A stretch of DNA of 64,000 bases from Geranomyces variabilis (Eukaryota; Chytridiomycota; Chytridiomycetes; Spizellomycetales; Powellomycetaceae): positions 283,156-347,155 of the forward strand of contig JADGJP010000015.1 of the NCBI GenBank assembly GCA_027603065.1, read 5' to 3'. Below the pieces are notes generated by a model. It saw only the letters and a program-made list of their open reading frames with translations. It made no database searches and was not told the DNA's origin. Both the position numbers and the translations under genes were made by a program. Below are positions 3,520 to 58,541 of the stretch, one piece after another (the stretch's first letter is position 1; the number at the start of each line of letters is the position of its first letter).

Positions 3520-4200
3520 TGTTGCACATCGGCTTGGGCACTCATGCTGCTACCTTCTGGCTGGCAACCCGCTAATGCTGAACCAAGCCATCATGTGGGG
3601 CATGGAGAGAGCACAGCGAGTCTCCATGCACCGATGGGCAGTGAATGGATCAACAAGGAAACGGGNNNNNNNNNNNNNNNNNNNNNNNNNNNNNNNNNNN
3701 NNNNNNNNNNNNNNNNNNNNNNNNNNNNNNNNNNNNNNNNNNNNNNNNNNNNNNNNNNNNNNNNNNNNNNNNNNNNNNNNNNNNNNNNNNNNNNNNNNNN
3801 NNNNNNNNNNNNNNNNNNNNNNNNNNNNNNNNNNNNNNNNNNNNNNNNNNNNNNNNNNNNNNNNNNNNNNNNNNNNNNNNNNNNNNNNNNNNNNNNNNNN
3901 NNNNNNNNNNNNNNNNNNNNNNNNNNNNNNNNNNNNNNNNNNNNNNNNNNNNNNNNNNNNNNNNNNNNNNNNNNNNNNNNNNNNNNNNNNNNNNNNNNNN
4001 CAACACGGACAATAAAGCCCTCAGCATCACCGTCAGGTTGGTCACCCTCGGGTCAGTTGACGCCGACTCAGCTCATGCTGGCAAACTGAGTGGACGCGCT
4101 GATGATCCCTTGATGCATTTGCAGCAACCGGAATCTGCTGGTGGAAGCAATTAGTTATAATCGTCCGTAAATTAGAAAGACCGTTTCAGTGCTCTGATCG
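3520..4200. repeat. diverged repeat unit, copy 2, interrupted by N gap
   Basis: This is the second copy of the unit at 2985-3440. The first half (3520-3660) matches 2985-3120 and the second half (4006-4200) matches 3280-3480. The gap falls between the two halves, so extra copies of the unit may be collapsed or missing there. Confidence 0.6.
3666..4000. other. assembly gap (335 N)
   Basis: A run of 335 unknown bases. Its position inside a repeated unit suggests the gap was caused by the repeat. Open frames running across it are artefacts. Confidence 0.99.
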
Positions 4201-39398: not shown

Positions 39399-40231
39399 TC
39401 ACTTGCGGCCACCTCGCCCACCGCCGCCTCGTCCACCACCTCGCGAACCGCCACCACCACCCCTCGGGGCTTTACCTCTAACCAGCCTGCCCGCCGCACT
39501 CTCCTCATCATCCTTCTCGGCCGCATCCTCACCCACCCCACCAGTCCGTTTCCGCTTGCCCACACCACCAGCCTTCGCATTCGCAAGCTCATCCTTCAAC
39601 TGCATATGCGCAAACCTCGTCGCTTCCGCCACGCGTTCCTGCAAAAGCAGCACCGCAGCGCGGTCTTTGCCCAAAGCAGGATACTCATCCAGTTTCCGAC
39701 CCATGGAATGCTCGATCCGCTGAAACCACTCAACATCATACTGGGTGACGAGCGTCACGCTCTTTCCGGCGCGGCCCGCACGCGCGGTGCGCCCCACACG
39801 ATGGATGTAGTCTTTGCTGCTCTGCGGGACATCGTAGTTGATTACGGCGTCGACGCCTGCGATGTCCAGCCCGCGGGACGCGACGTCGGTGGCGATTAGG
39901 ATTGAGCGCCCGCCGGATTTGAATTTCGTGAGTGCGCCGAGACGTTTTGGTTGGGACATTTGGCCGTGCAGGCAGACGGCGTCGAAGCCGAGGTTGCGGA
40001 GCATGAGGGCGAGTTTTTGGGTGGAGGCGCAGGTTAGGGTGAAGACGATGCAGGTTTGGCCGGCGAGTTCGTTGAGGAGGTAGGTGAGGTAGCATTCCTT
40101 GTGTTTGAAGGGGAAAAAGACGTAGTATTGGAGGAGGGTTGCGACTGTCGAGTATCTAGCATTGGGGAAAGAGGAAGTGGAGAGATAAAGGAGATCAGTA
40201 ATTACGAAGCATTCACAAAGCACACGCTCAC

Positions 40232-40270
<39 letters not shown>

Positions 40271-41021
40271 GTCGCCCATACTCACTTGGTTGCAACCTCA
40301 ACTTTGACCGGATTAACCAGCGACGCACGCTGCAGCTTTTCGACTTTACTCGTCATTGTTGCCGAAAACAAAAACGTATTCCTCTCTCTCGGAATAACCT
40401 TCAACAACTTTTCAATCTCTGCGCCAAAATCCAAATCCAGCAAGCGATCGGCCTCGTCCATCACAAGATACTTCAACTGCTTCAGATTGAACCCTTTTGT
40501 GTTTTCCAAATGGTCAATCAACCGGCCAGGCGTGGCAATCACGACATGCGGTTTCTTGCTCAGCGCGATCGCCTGCGACATCATATCCATTCCACCAACG
40601 ACAACCGCGCATCGCACGCCGATCGTCGAGCCGAGCGCTTCGAACTGCTCCGAGATTTGGAACGCGAGTTCGCGTGTAGGGGCCAGAACGCATGCGTACA
40701 GCGGTTGTGGCGATGCGAACAGCCGTTGGAGGATTGGTAATGCGAAAGCCGCGGTTTTGCCAGAGCCCGTTTGGGCGAGGCCGATGATGTCGCGGCCTTC
40801 GAGGGCTTGTGGGATGGATGCGGCTTGGATGTCAGACGGGGTTGTGAAGCCGAGTTTTGTGCATGCTTCAATGAGTTGCGGGATTAAACCCTGCGGTAGA
40901 GAGAATGGGGCAGAAAGAAGGGCGTTGAGGGCGTTGCCTCGGTCGGCTCTCCTTTGCAAGGACCACGTACCAGTGACTCGAATGAGACGGGCGGATCTGT
41001 AGGTTTAAGTTCTTCTGCCAT
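39399..41021 (-). CDS. RRP3: DEAD-box RNA helicase, Rrp3/DDX47-type
   Basis: Three exons (40971-41021, 40286-40890, 39399-40155) sum to 1413 nt (470 residues). All helicase motifs are present: Q-motif region ([18 protein letters not shown]), [61 protein letters not shown]. The stretch [13 protein letters not shown] after motif VI is typical of Rrp3/DDX47, which acts in early 18S pre-rRNA processing in the nucleolus. The C-terminus has an RGG-like Gly/Arg tail. Intron 2 carries a CA microsatellite at about 40215-40272. The start [12 protein letters not shown] follows a possible 5'-UTR intron. Confidence 0.92.
40215..40272. repeat. CA-rich microsatellite inside an intron
   Basis: About 58 bases of mostly (CA)n with scattered CATA interruptions. 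They lie within intron 2 of the Rrp3 gene (40156-40285). Confidence 0.95.
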
Positions 41022-43931: not shown

Positions 43932-46809
43932 ATGGTGACCATCGACCGCATCACCCTTGGTTGCTCCATTGACAACCTCGTGGCAAAAGTCACAAGTGTG
44001 CGCAAAGACGGCAACGCGCAAAACACTTCTGGAAAAGAGAAGACCCAGAAAGCAACAACGACCAGAGGCAGGACGCTGATTGTAGCAGAGCTGGCGGACC
44101 CCACAGGACGGGTTTCCCTCCTATGTTCAGAGAGTAAGGCGTGCTATTTTTTTTCTCTCTGCTGCAGCGTTTTTGTTCGTACCATCGGTTAAACAAATGT
44201 GCTGCGGACTACTAGGTTACTCGGCGGTGGTGAAACCGGGCCGTGTCCTCCACATATGCGGACGGGCGACCTGTTACGCTGGCCGATTGCAAGTGCAGGG
44301 TGGGTGACCTAGTCATATCGCTGAGTACATACTTTTCGTCGCCCCTCACACGTTCTTAACAGTGGGCGACAAATGGGGATCAATCCGAAAGGCTGTTGGA
44401 AACGAGGGCTTTGGGTCCCTCGACTTTTCCGCCATGAATCACCTATCAGAATCTGTATGTTCTCTGCTGCTTGGGCATGTCGAAAGCGCATCGGCGGCGC
44501 GGACACCTTGACTGATCTGATCATGTGTAACCACCGTTTTAGACCCGTCGTTACGGTGTGCTGCTAGTCAGGAAAGATTGTGATGGTGTGGTGGAATATC
44601 TCCTGGCCGAGGACGACCACGATCACCATGAGGACCACGACCACCATGGGCAAACGCTCTTTAGCGTCCCGACCGAGTTCCCTTCGCTCAGGGATACCGA
44701 AAAAGATGCAGGTAGGGGCTTCTTAGCGCAAAGAAAGGGATTCGGTCAGCTCCCTTCCGCACTATTAAACGTCTCTGCTGCTGCCTTTCCCACGACAGCG
44801 ACTCGAGCCCTGATTAACGCAACATCCATCACCGAGTATGATTTCGTCCTCCTTCATCAGATTCCGCCCATTCTAATCCCATCGCGGTCGGAGGGGCCAG
44901 CACGTTACGTCTACGTCGGCTTCCCCAACCCGGGTCATGCGGCTCTGGAATCCAATGCAGTTTGGGCTGATTTGGAGAAGATCAAGAAGGGTCAAATGCA
45001 CGTCCATCCGTGGGTGCAAGGGCTACTCGATTCCGTCGCTGCGTTGCCCAGTATCGGAGACGTTGCGGCAACCCAGCCTCCGGCGGCGGCGCCTGCCAAG
45101 AAAAAGGTTGACAAGCTTCCTGTAACCGTACTTTCTGGTTTCCTTGGAGGTATGTGGACCGAGGATACGCCCTTTTACTGCCGCTTTTCGCTTGTTATCC
45201 GAAATCTTTTCTCAAAGTGGCATTTCCATTTGAGCTAGCTGGTAAGACTACGCTCCTCAACTCGATCCTGAACAACACGCAAAACCTTCGTATATGCGTG
45301 ATTGTGAACGACATGGGCGAAGTGAACATTGACTTCAAACTGATTGAAAATGATGGATTCACAAGAGTGGACGAAAAGTTGGTCGAACTGACGAACGGAT
45401 GTATATGGTGAGTTGCGGGTCGTCCCCAACTTGATCAGAGTGTATTCCAGTCCAAGTCATTAATGCCTACCCCCCCTTTAACTTCAGCTGCACCCTCCGA
45501 GAAGATCTCCTCGAACAAGTCGCCCAACTGGCATCAGCAAATAAGTTCGATTACCTCCTCATCGAATCCTCCGGTACGTGAAGGCCACCTCACTACCAAC
45601 TCACGCTATGCCCGTGTTAGTAAATGATCGTTTCATGCAGGCATCAGTGAACCCCTCCCGGTCGCGGAAACTTTCGAATTCACGACCGATCTCCCAGGAC
45701 ACCGCACCCTCATGGAGGTGGCCAGGTTGGACACGATGGTGACGCTAGTTGACTCGGTAAGATATTCAGTACCTGCCGTTTCCACTCGGGGCCGTAATCT
45801 CTGACATTGTCTCCTAGGTGAACTTCTTGCGCGATTTCTGGACGTCAGACACGTTGCGGAAGCGAGACCTCAATGCCACGCCAACGGACGCTCGTCACGT
45901 TGTTGACCTCCTGCGAGATCAAGTCGAGTTTGCAAACGGTAAACTTCCAAATGTCTCGTCCCGTTCCTACTTATCGCTCTACTCCAGAAAGCCAGAAACA
46001 ATTACTCACTTCCGCGTTTATCCTTTTGTTTTCGATCTCACAGTCCTTGTAATGACAAAAACGGATCTTGTCCCCGAACACGGCCTGCGTAAACTCGAAG
46101 CTATACTGACAAGCCTGAACCCAACCGCCAAGATCCTCTCATCCTCTCGCGGGGATTTAGATCCCAGTACCATTTTGAATACGGGCTTCTTTTCCCTTGA
46201 AAAAGCCAGAATGAACAAGGACTGGTTGGTTGAACCCCGGTACGTAAGGCTAGGCACATTTTCATGGTTCAAAGGAATCATGTCCTCACATATTCCATTC
46301 GCCAGAGGAACGCACGTCCCCGAAACCCTCGAATATAACATCAGCCACACCACCTTCACATCGCGCACTCCCTTCCACCCTCTCCGATTATGGAATCTCG
46401 TACATCGGTCCACCTCCGACCTTTTTCAGAACGTTCTTCGATCAAAAGGGTTCGTCTATATAGCGACGCAGCCAAAGTACCCCATTACATGGTCCCAGGC
46501 CGGGAGCATCAGTGAGTTTAGGGTCGGGCCGGTGCCTTGGGAGGAGAGTGATCCTGGGCAATGTTTAGTTTTTATCGGGGTGGGGTTGGATAAGGACAAG
46601 GTTCGTTCTTTGGTTTACCAAGCGCACATGGCACTCTTTTTTCGACGATGACATGCCGCCTGACTCGCATTCCTCGCTCTCACGCACAGATCCACAAAGA
46701 ACTTTCCAAATGCTTGCTCAAACGTAAGGAACTTGGGATGGGCTTCAAGTTCTGGGCGAGGGAATTTGGTGATCCGTTCCATGATGTTTTGAAAGGCTCG
46801 AAACGATGA
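43932..46809 (+). CDS. OB-fold (SOSS-B-like) / Nudix-like / CobW-family GTPase, in-frame chain
   Basis: Twelve exons stay in frame over 2001 nt (666 residues): 43932-44133, 44216-44299, 44363-44454, 44543-44711, 44799-45149, 45239-45407, 45488-45573, 45641-45756, 45818-45938, 46044-46239, 46306-46600 and 46690-46809. Residues 1-126 resemble the SOSS-B single-strand DNA-binding OB fold (LIVAELADPTGRVSLL, VVKPGRVLHICGRA). Residues about 128-290 look like a degenerate Nudix fold (YGVLLVRKDCDGVVEYLL; SVPTEF...AATRALINATSI at the Nudix-box position, without the catalytic Glu pattern) with a His-rich insert (DDHDHHEDHDHH). The rest is a COG0523/CobW metallochaperone GTPase: LSGFLGAGKTTLLN, the metal-site NGCICCTLREDL, ESSGISEPLPV, VMTKTDLV. 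Alternatively the GTPase starts at an ATG in exon 3 (44434) and the OB-fold is a separate gene ending about 44511. Confidence 0.8.
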
Positions 46810-47957: not shown

Positions 47958-49425
47958 ATGTTCTTGTCTCCGCCGCCAACCTTCCACCTCGCGGCTCGCG
48001 AGGCAGCCAGCACAAACATGACTATAGCGCCCGAAGACGACTGCGCACCGCTAGTGGGACCGAACTTTGACCCCGCAAACCCAGAGTTCCAGCGTCTGGT
48101 CATTGCTTTACAGATCACCGTCGTTCTCGCCGCCATCTCTATCAGTGCCAGCTTCTATTTAATCGTAAGTTTTGAAATGTGTGAGGTTGACAGCGAGAAA
48201 ACCCGCCGACTTCCCTCTTTTTCTGGATTTTACAGTTTCGACACTTGAAGAACTACACGCAACCCCAATATCAACGCTGGATCGTCCGCATCCTGCTAAT
48301 GGTGCCCCTTTACGCATTTTCCTCATGCCTCACCTTTCGGTTTTACTGGCTCGCCCCATACATTGACGTTGTGCGGGACTCGTACGAGGCGTTCGCGTTG
48401 TATAGTTTCCACCGCTTGCTGCTGCTCTACCTTGGGCCGGACCTTGAGGCGCAGCATGCACGCATGCAAGGGAAGAAAATCAAGCGGTTTCCGCTGCCGT
48501 TTTGTTGTTGGTGGTATAATCCCGCGGGCTACGCGTATTTGCTTAATACGCGGTATTTGGTGCTGCAGTATGTAGTTGTTAGGTATGTTTCGCGCCGTGC
48601 GCAGGATGGGCAATAAAAGAGGGGGATCTAATTCTTTTTTCTCCTTTCGGTGCGTATAGACCCCTGACAACCTTTATGGCGCTCATCTTTTGGGGATTTG
48701 GCGTTCTGTGCCCCAACTCAAACTCCCCTACCCACGGCCAATTCTGGGTCACGTCCCTGAATCTCCTGAGCAGCACGCTGGCCGTGTACGGTCTCTTCAC
48801 CTTCTACCTCGACATCAGCGCCGACATCCGCGAACACAAACCGCTATGGAAAGTCATCGCCGTAAAATTCATCGTGTTTATGTGCTTCTGGGGCTCCCTT
48901 ATCCTGTCGGCCCTCGTGAAATTCAACGTCATCAAATCGACACAATACTATTCCGCGGAAGCCGCAAGCGATATGCTGAACGCGTTTATCATCTGCGTTG
49001 AGATGCTGATTGCGGCTGCGTTGCATGTGAAAGCGTTTCCGTATACGGATTTCACGCAACTGCGTGCGGGTGCGGCGCCGACGATGAGGTTCTGGCCCGC
49101 GGTGCGGGATTCCCTTTCGCCGAGAGTGTTTTGGAGGGATGTGAAGGACGCGCCAAAGGAAATGAGAGAGCAGCGGCATCGGAGGAAGGAGAGGAGGGAG
49201 AAGAGGTCGGAGTTGGCGAATAGTCTTGGTCGGGACGTTATGATGCCGCCGCCGAGAGTGGCCAGTTTGAAGGAAGCGCAGTTTGTGCGGCCGCCGATGC
49301 GGACGCGGTGGGATGCTGAAGCCGGCAGCGAGGATGATGATGATGATGCGAGCAGTACTAGCAGCGGGCATTCTATGACCTCGGTCGGGAATTTTGCAAA
49401 AAGCGGGAGGCCATTGTATAAATAA
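47958..49425 (+). CDS. TMEM184/DUF300 (Ost-alpha-like) seven-helix membrane protein
   Basis: Three exons (47958-48164, 48236-48582, 48660-49425) sum to 1320 nt (439 residues). An alternative ATG lies at 48018. Family features seen: HLKNYTQPQYQRWIVRILLM, a conserved loop plus helix; DSYEAFALYSFHRLLLLYLG, the YEA(F/L)xxY motif; and a later YLDISADIREHKPLWKV with KFIVFMCFWGS. Seven hydrophobic segments can be placed. The C-terminal 110 residues are charged and probably cytosolic (KERREKRSEL, an Asp run). Relatives are endomembrane or vacuolar proteins related to organic solute transporter alpha. The function in fungi is not settled. Confidence 0.9.
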
Positions 49426-55282: not shown

Positions 55283-58200
55283 ATGCTACGATTAAAGCCA
55301 GAATCGCCAGTGTGTCACGTCTCCCGCACCTATCAGGGATATGTTGCTCGAATTAGGCTGCCTGACGACGTTGCGCTCACGAACGAGAAAATGAGCGGCA
55401 AAACTGCCGTGCTTCCCACGCCGGTTCTCGTCGTGGACGTCTCTGGTAAATTGTTGTTGTCCCAACGTTTAACATCATTAGCGAGCGTGGTCCTAAATAT
55501 GTTTTGTTCTAGGCTCCATGGGTCAATACGCCAATCGCCTCATACAATCCTTACTTCCCAACGCGCTGGAGAGCCTGCACTACCCGGCCGACACACGGGT
55601 TCACATTGTCACTTTCGAGGCCAACACCGTCCACGACACCGTTACTATTACAGGCCTGCGCAACTACAAAAACTACACTCAAGGCGGAACCCAGATGAGC
55701 GGCGTTCCCAAGATTCTGCGAGGCATCTTGGAGTCCGGCGAGTCTGGATACCTCCTTGTCGCTGTCTCGGACGGCGAGGTATGGGACCAGACTGAAACGC
55801 AGGCGGCTGCTGCAGTCACAGCCGAGGCCATTGCAGCTACAACCGCTTCAATCAGCTCGCACGCGATCAGGTTTAACACGGGCGGCCAGTCTGACACACG
55901 GGCGCTGTCGTCGCTTCTTCAACTCGACAATACGGGACTCGTTACTTCGTTGACGGAGATTGACGCATCGTGGCCCGCTGACAGGGTCTTACTCGAGCTC
56001 GAGAAGGCCATCTCGCGCGACGGACAGCTGTCGGTCCCCACCGTTTCTATAGAGATTACCGGTGCAAACGTGCGCAAGTTTCCTTGGGGCGAAGCCGCTG
56101 CGACAACGGCTTCGTCAGTGATTCCTGTTGGCGACAATGGAGAACACACCATTTGGCTAGACGCCATTCCGGACAAGGTTATCGTCGGCGGAATTTCGGT
56201 TCCTATTAACGTGAACGACTCGTTTATGAACCGCGGTACTTACCAGCAGACTCTTGGGAAGGACGTTGAGGGCTTCTTACAGCGTGCCAAAATCCTTAAG
56301 GTCGTCGACACGGATGCTTCGCAAAAGCAGTTAGACTGCATGATGAGCTACTTTGATGGAGTCGAAAATTCCTTTGGGGCTGAGGACGAGGAAAACGCAG
56401 AGGAGAAGGAGAACGGACAACCAAATCTCCGCGCCCGCTCTGACCGACTGCGACGAATGGTACGCAAAGCAACCGGCTCGATTAAAACCCGCCTCTTGTC
56501 AATTGTAAACGACACGCGCGTTGGCACAATGAATGCGTCGCAGCAGGCAGACTACTTACGAACTGTAGACGTCAACAAAACTTCGAAGGCCTTGGCGAAG
56601 CGAGCAGCCGCGTCGGCCGATGCGCTTGATTTCGACGCAGCAATGCGGCGAGAGGTTCGTAACATGCGAAATAACCTTTCGGAGCTGAAGGACGTGGATG
56701 ACTCCAAGCACATGGTATCGTTCTATTCTCGTGCGACGACTCTGGATGGCATCAAGACGGTGTGCGAACTTGCAGACGATGGAACGCTGGAAAATATCAA
56801 TGTCGCGCAAGTCATCGAGCTTTTCAACATTGTCGGCGTTCCCTGTGATGCACCTGTTGGCGATTATCCCGATCCCATGACGTACTGCCTCAACGAGGTC
56901 TTTCCAGTTTGCAATGTTAGCTTGGCTGATGTTCTCGTCCACACTGTCGACTCTGGGGGCCGGGCCCTCAAGACCCCCGCCACTGATCGTGAAATAATCA
57001 ATGTGGTCCCGATTTTTGAGGATGACCGCATCGTGCGCTTCCTTCAAAGACATGCCCCTACGCTTCTCGAGTACGTCGCCAGTGTCGGAATGCGGAGAAT
57101 GATCGTCGCTGTCCCTAAAACGATGGGCTATACGATGCTAGCGGGGGTCTGGAAGATGATGGAGACGGTCGCAAAAGAACCTTCCGAAATTGCCATCCGG
57201 ACGTTCCTGTATCTGGTTGAGCAGCTCCCCGCCACTGTCGGAAACGCCTTTGCGCACACGCTGGCGCTGATCGACAACAAGAACGACGACCCACATCTAT
57301 CTTTTTCCCTCGCGTACAATGGCGTGATTAACATGTTGGTGGCGTTACTACACGGCATACGCGAGAAGAAAGAGTTTGACATGGCAAAGTTGCTCCGCGC
57401 GCTCTACTCGTTTGAGGTCTGGCAGGCGGTCAGAAAGCTGTATCGACCTATCGACGGGGAGGTGGAGCGGATGATTCAGCGGTTGTTTAATGTGGACTTT
57501 GACACTTGGCGCATCCCCGTTACGCCGTTGTTTGACGAGGATGTCGCTCCGGAAGATGTGAAGTCTACCTGGCCGGCGGTTCTCGACGAAACTTACAGGA
57601 AGACCTTATACAAGTCATGCTGGTACGTCGACTTCATGACCTACATTCCCAGCATGTTCGGCATCGCGGCTTCCAGGGTCGACATGGACGAAAAGATTGG
57701 CCAGTTCAAAAACCTGCCGGTATTCGACGACACCTACAAGGCCGCGATTCTCGGCGTTCCGGATCTTTGCAAGTTTCAAGAGACAGTCTTACTTCAGGCG
57801 CTCGTCTACACGACGAAAAAGAGCCGAGTGGACGAAGAGACCAATCGTCCAATCTTGCCGGATCCAGGGGACGCGGACTCGAATTCGCTGGGTCAGCGTG
57901 CGCTGCGTGACATCTACATACGGCGATACCACGCGGATCTGGGGAAGAAAGCTGCGGAGGAGGACGCCATCCTTGTCCAGGAACTTGTCACTGGCTTGCT
58001 CGCTGCCCCAGACATGACAGCCTTCTTACAGCTCATCGAGTCGGGAGTCACGCGCGGTTGCCGAACAATGACCCTCGCAACGCCGTCCAGCCAAGCGTTT
58101 GTCGCCCTCAAGCCTGCAATTTTCACAGCGACACCCAGCCAAGAAATCCCTCACCACGCCGCAAAACTTGCGTTCCTCATCGCCGGCACTACCGCACCTG

Positions 58201-58541
58201 ATGAATCATCGACAACCACATGGAACAACGGCAACATGCTCCTCCCCTTCCGCACGTCCTGGTCCCGGATTTTCGAGGCTCTGGACGGAGGCGAGAAGCT
58301 CTGGCGGTGGTTGCGCAAGCTGCAGCGGAAGCGCGTGCATCGGTACCGGGAGGGAGACGGCAACCGCCACGGACACTCGAATGAGCTGGTCAGCTACTGG
58401 GCGATGGGATATCCCACTATTGCTGTCATGAGAGCTGATGTGTCTGATGCGAAGTGGGATGAGTACCGTAAAGCTCACCAAAACTGCTGCGGGTTCATCA
58501 ATGGTGCGTACTCAGGACCCTTGAATGAGACAAAGGCCTGA
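55283..58541 (+). CDS. large VWA-domain protein of unknown function, 1063 aa
   Basis: Two exons (55283-55445, 55513-58541) sum to 3192 nt. The intron splits the metal-ion-dependent adhesion site, which reads DVSGSMG once spliced. Other VWA features are VHIVTFEAN, the MIDAS Thr in YTQGGTQMSG, and LLVAVSDGE (about residues 45-160). A beta-rich part follows (TVSIEITGANVRKFPWGE; HTIWLDAIPDKVIVGGIS). After it come an acidic linker (AEDEENAEEKENG) and a long helical region to the C-terminus (EFDMAKLLRALYSFEVW, IGQFKNLPVFDDTYKAAI) that I do not recognise. No signal peptide or membrane helix is evident, so it is probably intracellular. The single intron and 3 kb exon contrast with neighbouring intron-rich genes. 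Confidence 0.85.

Follow-up and report, generated by a model that had tools for sequence, protein, structure and literature searches.

A predicted ZigA-type COG0523 GTPase of the chytrid Geranomyces variabilis with a putative OB-fold and His/Asp-rich N-terminal extension

We analysed a window of 64,000 nucleotides from contig JADGJP010000015.1 of the chytrid Geranomyces variabilis. A single gene in this window is predicted to encode a 666-residue Zn-dependent COG0523 GTPase of the ZigA/MchC type. Ahead of the GTPase, at the N-terminus, a lineage-specific extension would comprise an OB fold (aa ~5-120), followed by a compact region of the alpha/beta type (aa ~127-270) that may be a dead Nudix domain and that carries a His/Asp-rich loop. 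Taken as a whole, this reading of one gene and one product has, in our judgement, an even chance of being correct; its parts differ in strength, as described below.

Gene model and GTPase half

The initial annotation had proposed twelve exons in a single 2001-nt frame over positions 43932-46809. Rebuilding the exons from the sequence gave the same result: 2001 nt in one frame, 666 codons and a stop (TGA, 46807-46809), with introns of the GT..AG type and 61-105 nt in length. The features of the gene are as follows.

43932-44133, + strand: exon 1, start ATG and N-terminal part of the likely OB fold (aa 1-67); gene model, PF01336 match at aa 41-97
44216-44299, + strand: exon 2, likely OB fold; gene model, alignment to solved SSBs
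44363-44454, + strand: exon 3, end of the likely OB fold (to aa 126), containing the in-frame ATG 44434; gene model
44455-44542, + strand: intron 3, 88 nt; GTATGT donor, TTTTAG acceptor
44543-44711, + strand: exon 4, first half of the Nudix-like region and His tract; gene model
44612-44647, + strand: His/Asp tract DDHDHHEDHDHH, aa 150-161; sequence
44712-44798, + strand: intron 4, 87 nt, in frame and stop-free, interrupting the putative degenerate Nudix box; gene model
44799-45149, + strand: exon 5, remaining half of the Nudix-like region, a linker of Ala and Pro (aa 272-285), start of Walker A, and ATG 44996; gene model
45239-46239, + strand: exons 6-10, COG0523 GTPase domain (GCICC, Walker B, TKTD); PF02492, E 5.2e-52
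46306-46809, + strand: exons 11-12, CobW_C domain and stop TGA; PF07683, E 4.2e-22

Three in-frame ATGs lie 5' of the GTPase, at 43932 (exon 1), 44434 (exon 3) and 44996 (exon 5). The last of these is codon 249, 47 codons ahead of Walker A, and a start there loses most of the middle region. The ATG in exon 3 had been described as the only one visible for the GTPase. It is indeed in frame, but the description is inexact because ATG 44996 is in frame as well. Retention of the stop-free intron 4 would insert 29 residues midway in the Nudix-like region.

The GTPase half matches both Pfam domains given above and contains Walker A (aa 296-304), the GCxCC site as GCICC (aa 353-357), the Walker B region (aa 381-388) and the [NT]KxD motif as TKTD (aa 468-471), which together with the CobW_C domain are the features that define COG0523 (CobW) proteins. 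The best NCBIfam model is that of ZigA (NF038288; E 1e-133), at 446.1 bits against a curated cut-off of 600 bits for this equivalog, which is not reached. Its domains and motifs make the GTPase half a complete, ZigA-type COG0523 protein, in agreement with the earlier description of a complete COG0523 GTPase with a CxCC site. For the ZigA of S. aureus, the available text of PMC13339975 reports Zn-dependent GTPase activity and a link to survival of DNA damage.

A scan of a prokaryote genome collection gave 542 pattern matches and 531 confirmed relatives, the best 80 of which were kept; 76 of these loci have one long open frame with Walker A, and L002, L039, L068 and L074 were dropped. The window protein is 47-53% identical to the 76 relatives over ~370 residues. 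It shares with them the GTPase motifs, including GCICC, which is present in 76/76 bacterial rows; at the G4 motif, where the window has TKTD, the first residue in the bacterial rows is N in 65, T in 8 and S in 3. In contrast, no front part comparable to that of the window protein was seen among these 76 relatives, drawn from the best 80 of 531. With the exception of locus L001 (298 residues), none of them has more than 112 residues of open frame before the Walker search motif, and by eye none of the longest or near-longest fronts (L001, L032, L055, L065 and L075) resembles that of the window. We considered the 699-residue open frame of L001 as a fusion and rejected it: it has no upstream ATG until 19 residues before the Walker search motif, and the part upstream looks by eye like GC-rich read-through (ATG starts being weighed here, not GTG or TTG). 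A ZigA-family search of 101 genomes of the L001 phylum gave matches in 27, of which 7 were above the cut-off. The viral collection, queried with the 547-residue part of the protein that begins at ATG 44434, returned 7 pattern matches and no confirmed relative. In a quick tree, for which the careful search is unfinished, the window row has an end branch of 1.91 and falls outside every starred bacterial group. Thus, no donor is suggested, and a recent bacterial transfer of the GTPase was set aside, the placement of such a long row being unsure.

Several other features of the window were recorded. Upstream on the opposite strand lies a DEAD-box helicase (39399-40959, − strand), whose nearest solved structure is DDX47 (3ber, E 5.1e-92), and downstream on the same strand an Ostalpha/TMEM184-type transporter (48676-49425, + strand; PF03619, E 1.3e-35). 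An intronless open frame of 1007 residues (55518-58541, + strand) has no Pfam match at E<=0.01 and weak PDB matches to 12 sequences, the best to citrate synthases (E 0.31); its start looks von Willebrand A-type by eye. A run of N at about 3666-4001, within two long open frames, is an assembly gap or a masked stretch.

The N-terminal extension

Exon 5 runs unbroken from the end of the middle region, through the Ala/Pro-rich linker, to the start of Walker A. The unspliced frame from 44543 continues through intron 4 to a TAG at 45236, leaving 231 codons open, which is attained by 4 of 20000 order-1 random stretches. On the strength of these 231 open codons and of the unbroken exon 5, the join between the middle region and the GTPase is well supported at the sequence level, and the region ahead of the GTPase very probably codes for protein and forms one chain with it.

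The beginning of the extension likely adopts an OB fold. At aa 41-97 there is a match to PF01336 (E 6.7e-5, 23.2 bits, cut-off 27), PF21473 scores 17.9 bits (cut-off 24), and four NCBIfam models of single-stranded DNA-binding proteins give E 0.0013-0.0075, far under their cut-offs. Among solved structures, three SSB entries, which we take to be Sulfolobus proteins, match best (E 0.0025-0.0033); SOSS-B1 (hSSB1) follows at E 0.48-0.6. The OB fold can be aligned with Sulfolobus SSB and hSSB1 over aa 35-105 of the window protein. Counted along the alignment, W56, W75 and F79 of SsoSSB, presumably its stacking residues, face S66, a gap and Y88. The base-stacking residues of hSSB1 on ssDNA are W55, Y74, F78 and Y85, according to the available text of PMC6451162. 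By the same counting these face S66, R84, Y88 and Q95, hence three of the four aromatics (W55, Y74 and Y85) are replaced in the window and the position of F78 alone is aromatic. Binding of ssDNA in the manner of hSSB1 is not likely on this alignment. Of the SOSS-B-like, ssDNA-binding OB fold that had been proposed, the fold is retained and the ssDNA binding appears overstated.

The tract DDHDHHEDHDHH holds the only HxHxHxH-type motif of the protein (aa 152-161). Such a motif is found in 0/76 bacterial rows, which were cut to start 8 residues before the Walker search motif. The initial annotation considered this an unusual place for a His-rich loop in a COG0523 protein, and the literature agrees. 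A survey of 887 COG0523 proteins describes His-rich regions in about 40%, commonly near the C-terminus (available text of PMC2770081), and in A. fumigatus they are placed in the C-terminal half of MchB and at the C-terminal end of MchC (available text of PMC12584730). A His-rich store ahead of a G3E GTPase is not new in principle, because N-terminal His stretches are described for HypB and UreG, in HypB and most listed UreG proteins at the end ahead of the GTPase (available text of PMC2770081). These proteins belong to other G3E families, however, serve Ni rather than Zn and carry their His stretches at the ends, whereas that of the window lies inside a folded-looking region, which is unusual.

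The middle region had been called a Nudix-like fold lacking the catalytic Glu pattern, and a degenerate Nudix fold is, in our estimate, about equally likely to be right or wrong. The catalytic Nudix box is GX5EX7REUXEEXGU. At aa 165-196 the protein has RALINATSI in place of REUXEEXGU, with neither the Gly of the box nor the catalytic Glu, and the order of strands and helices in the Nudix reading was assigned by eye. The case for a Nudix relationship comes from an ungapped profile of the box, for which aa 165-196 rank 1 of 635 positions in the whole protein. The score at this site is equalled by 8/1000 shuffles of the middle region. In natural open-frame chunks, from which 15 open frames with the canonical RE.xEE pattern had been excluded, it is reached by 13/637 (12/591 unique chunks, about 2%), or by 9/591 with the catalytic columns masked. 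Among loci L001-L110, 11/582 chunks reach it, two of which (L090 and L110) are Nudix by eye, and among the open-frame chunks of the window, 0/97.

These scores argue against the alternative that aa 127-270 form an unrelated alpha/beta domain, or a lineage-specific extension around the His loop, to which we assign the same even probability. This alternative concerns the identity of the domain alone and is compatible with any gene structure proposed here. In its favour, no match is listed for the middle region up to E 10 in Pfam (including PF00293), NCBIfam or PHROGs, where the HMMER filters drop most matches above about 0.1. The PDB gave chance matches to 16 sequences (best E 0.26), many of them through His tags. 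Chance also accounts for 3 plasmid records (E 3-8) and for short pieces in 15 of 301 genomes of the L001 phylum (E<=0.1, best 0.0028). We built a Nudix profile from 20 segments of bacterial Nudix proteins, selected by motif in 30 loci, and the whole-domain comparisons made with it likewise do not favour a Nudix fold. The score of the local HMMER profile is reached by 151/2000 shuffles, and in semi-global alignment 45/300 shuffles are as good as a copy lacking the His tract, which scored lower than the copy that has it; the 300 shuffles were made for the former. A single-sequence AlphaFold2 model of 44543-45148, with intron 4 kept, was unusable (pLDDT 35) and its fold uninformative. The earlier Nudix call is a weak one: a degenerate box fits and the catalytic Glu is gone as described, while the lack of any family match and two negative whole-domain tests count against the fold itself.

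Intron 3 and the number of products

The join between the OB fold and the middle region rests on intron 3, and there is no linker at this junction. Phase alone would bring the two in frame in one case out of three. Codon usage does not discriminate between the frames. A small splice model was trained on introns 5-11 of the same gene and is biased towards them. In this model, every donor of introns 1-4 scored below all training donors, and the acceptor of intron 3 stood at the 36th percentile of AGs. Intron 3 contains two CTGAT motifs, which tell little because five of the seven training introns have none (such a motif occurs in 2/7). A search for starts covered single-exon leaders within 400 nt. 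It found four in phase into 44543, with donors 50-400 nt upstream and donor scores >0. The best is ATG 44434 with the donor of exon 3, but each of the remaining three likewise draws on the OB exons or the sequence next to them.

The locus could make two products that share exon 3, either as two overlapping genes or as one gene that is alternatively spliced, an arrangement we consider possible yet clearly less probable than even. When intron 3 is kept, the OB frame stops at TGA 44509-44511 and gives a 144-residue OB protein; the second product would be a Nudix-like GTPase of 547 residues that starts at ATG 44434 and lacks the OB fold. The length of intron 3, which is not a multiple of three, and its in-frame stop are consistent with such an arrangement, as is the rank of ATG 44434 as the top-scoring single-exon start for the middle region. 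Moreover, 144 residues is near the 144-151 positions of the weakly matching NCBIfam models named 'single-stranded DNA-binding protein', and the end of exon 3 falls by eye near that of the SOSS-B core. However, leaky scanning or a promoter located within the OB exons would be required, the tail added by the retained intron (VCSLLLGHVESASAARTP) is not known to resemble any described sequence, and the GTATGT donor of intron 3 speaks for splicing. Another view is that two separate genes lie side by side and join in frame by chance, as one in three would by phase, the GTPase starting at ATG 44996 or from an unseen 5' exon and intron 3 not being used as drawn. The bacterial relatives, judged by open frames and ATGs, do start not far before Walker A, and in the Mch proteins of A. 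fumigatus the GTPase motifs lie in the N-terminal half (available text of PMC12584730). Against this stand the 151 further open codons upstream of 44996, back to 44543, and the failure to find a single-exon start with a better donor within 400 nt. We hold separate neighbours to be improbable, and less likely than either one fusion or two products sharing exon 3.

Known systems and proposed working

The window protein is probably kin to A. fumigatus MchC, a kinship suggested by the closeness of both to ZigA. MchC is far closer than MchA to ZigA/ZagA, has the GxxGxGK[ST], GChCC and Walker B motifs of this type of fungal COG0523 GTPase, and probably supplies Zn to GTP cyclohydrolase I (available text of PMC12584730). 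The two proteins differ in layout. In MchC the GTPase motifs occupy the N-terminal half and the C-terminal end is His-rich, whereas in the window protein the GTPase follows a front of ~290 residues that contains the His tract (Walker A at aa 296, His motif at aa 152-161). Added domains do occur in eukaryotic COG0523 proteins, as in the Chlamydomonas CobW/WW protein CBP1, although its added domain is a C-terminal WW and CBP1 is nuclear and binds CCM1 (available text of PMC12891040). ZNG3, in the available text of PMC13368412, is probably the same protein as CBP1. Among the open-licence papers listed in a literature search, no OB-Nudix-CobW fusion is reported, and the titles and starts of abstracts show no fusion of COG0523 with Nudix.

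We propose the following working for the single 666-residue protein. The His/Asp loop would hold Zn2+ and raise its local concentration near GCICC. Following the general model for the family, binding of GTP would place Zn at GCICC and hydrolysis of GTP would pass it to a client. If A. fumigatus MchC is a guide, the client would most likely be a Zn enzyme, for instance GTP cyclohydrolase I, and the OB and Nudix-like parts may dock this client or read a nucleotide signal. These parts are unlikely to work as a hydrolase of the Nudix type or to bind ssDNA in the classical way, because the catalytic residues and most of the stacking residues are gone. A bolder version, which we regard as a long shot, would have the OB fold and a dead Nudix domain, acting as a nucleotide sensor (for ZTP or dihydroneopterin triphosphate, for example), gate the Zn delivery of the ZigA-type GTPase by a folate-pathway or DNA-damage signal, with splicing or retention of intron 3 switching between the fusion and a free OB protein. 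This version leans on two points: ZagA is reportedly tied to the alarmone ZTP, and a Nudix enzyme acts on dihydroneopterin triphosphate in folate synthesis.

The field has yet to explain how COG0523 GTPases pick their clients and load Zn. If the proposed working is correct, a built-in Zn store together with folded, sensor-like domains would give a direct handle on the recognition of client or signal. The protein would join the algal CobW/WW protein as a eukaryotic member of COG0523 that carries extra domains, and a Zn chaperone tied to an OB fold would be of interest given the link of S. aureus ZigA to DNA-damage survival (available text of PMC13339975).
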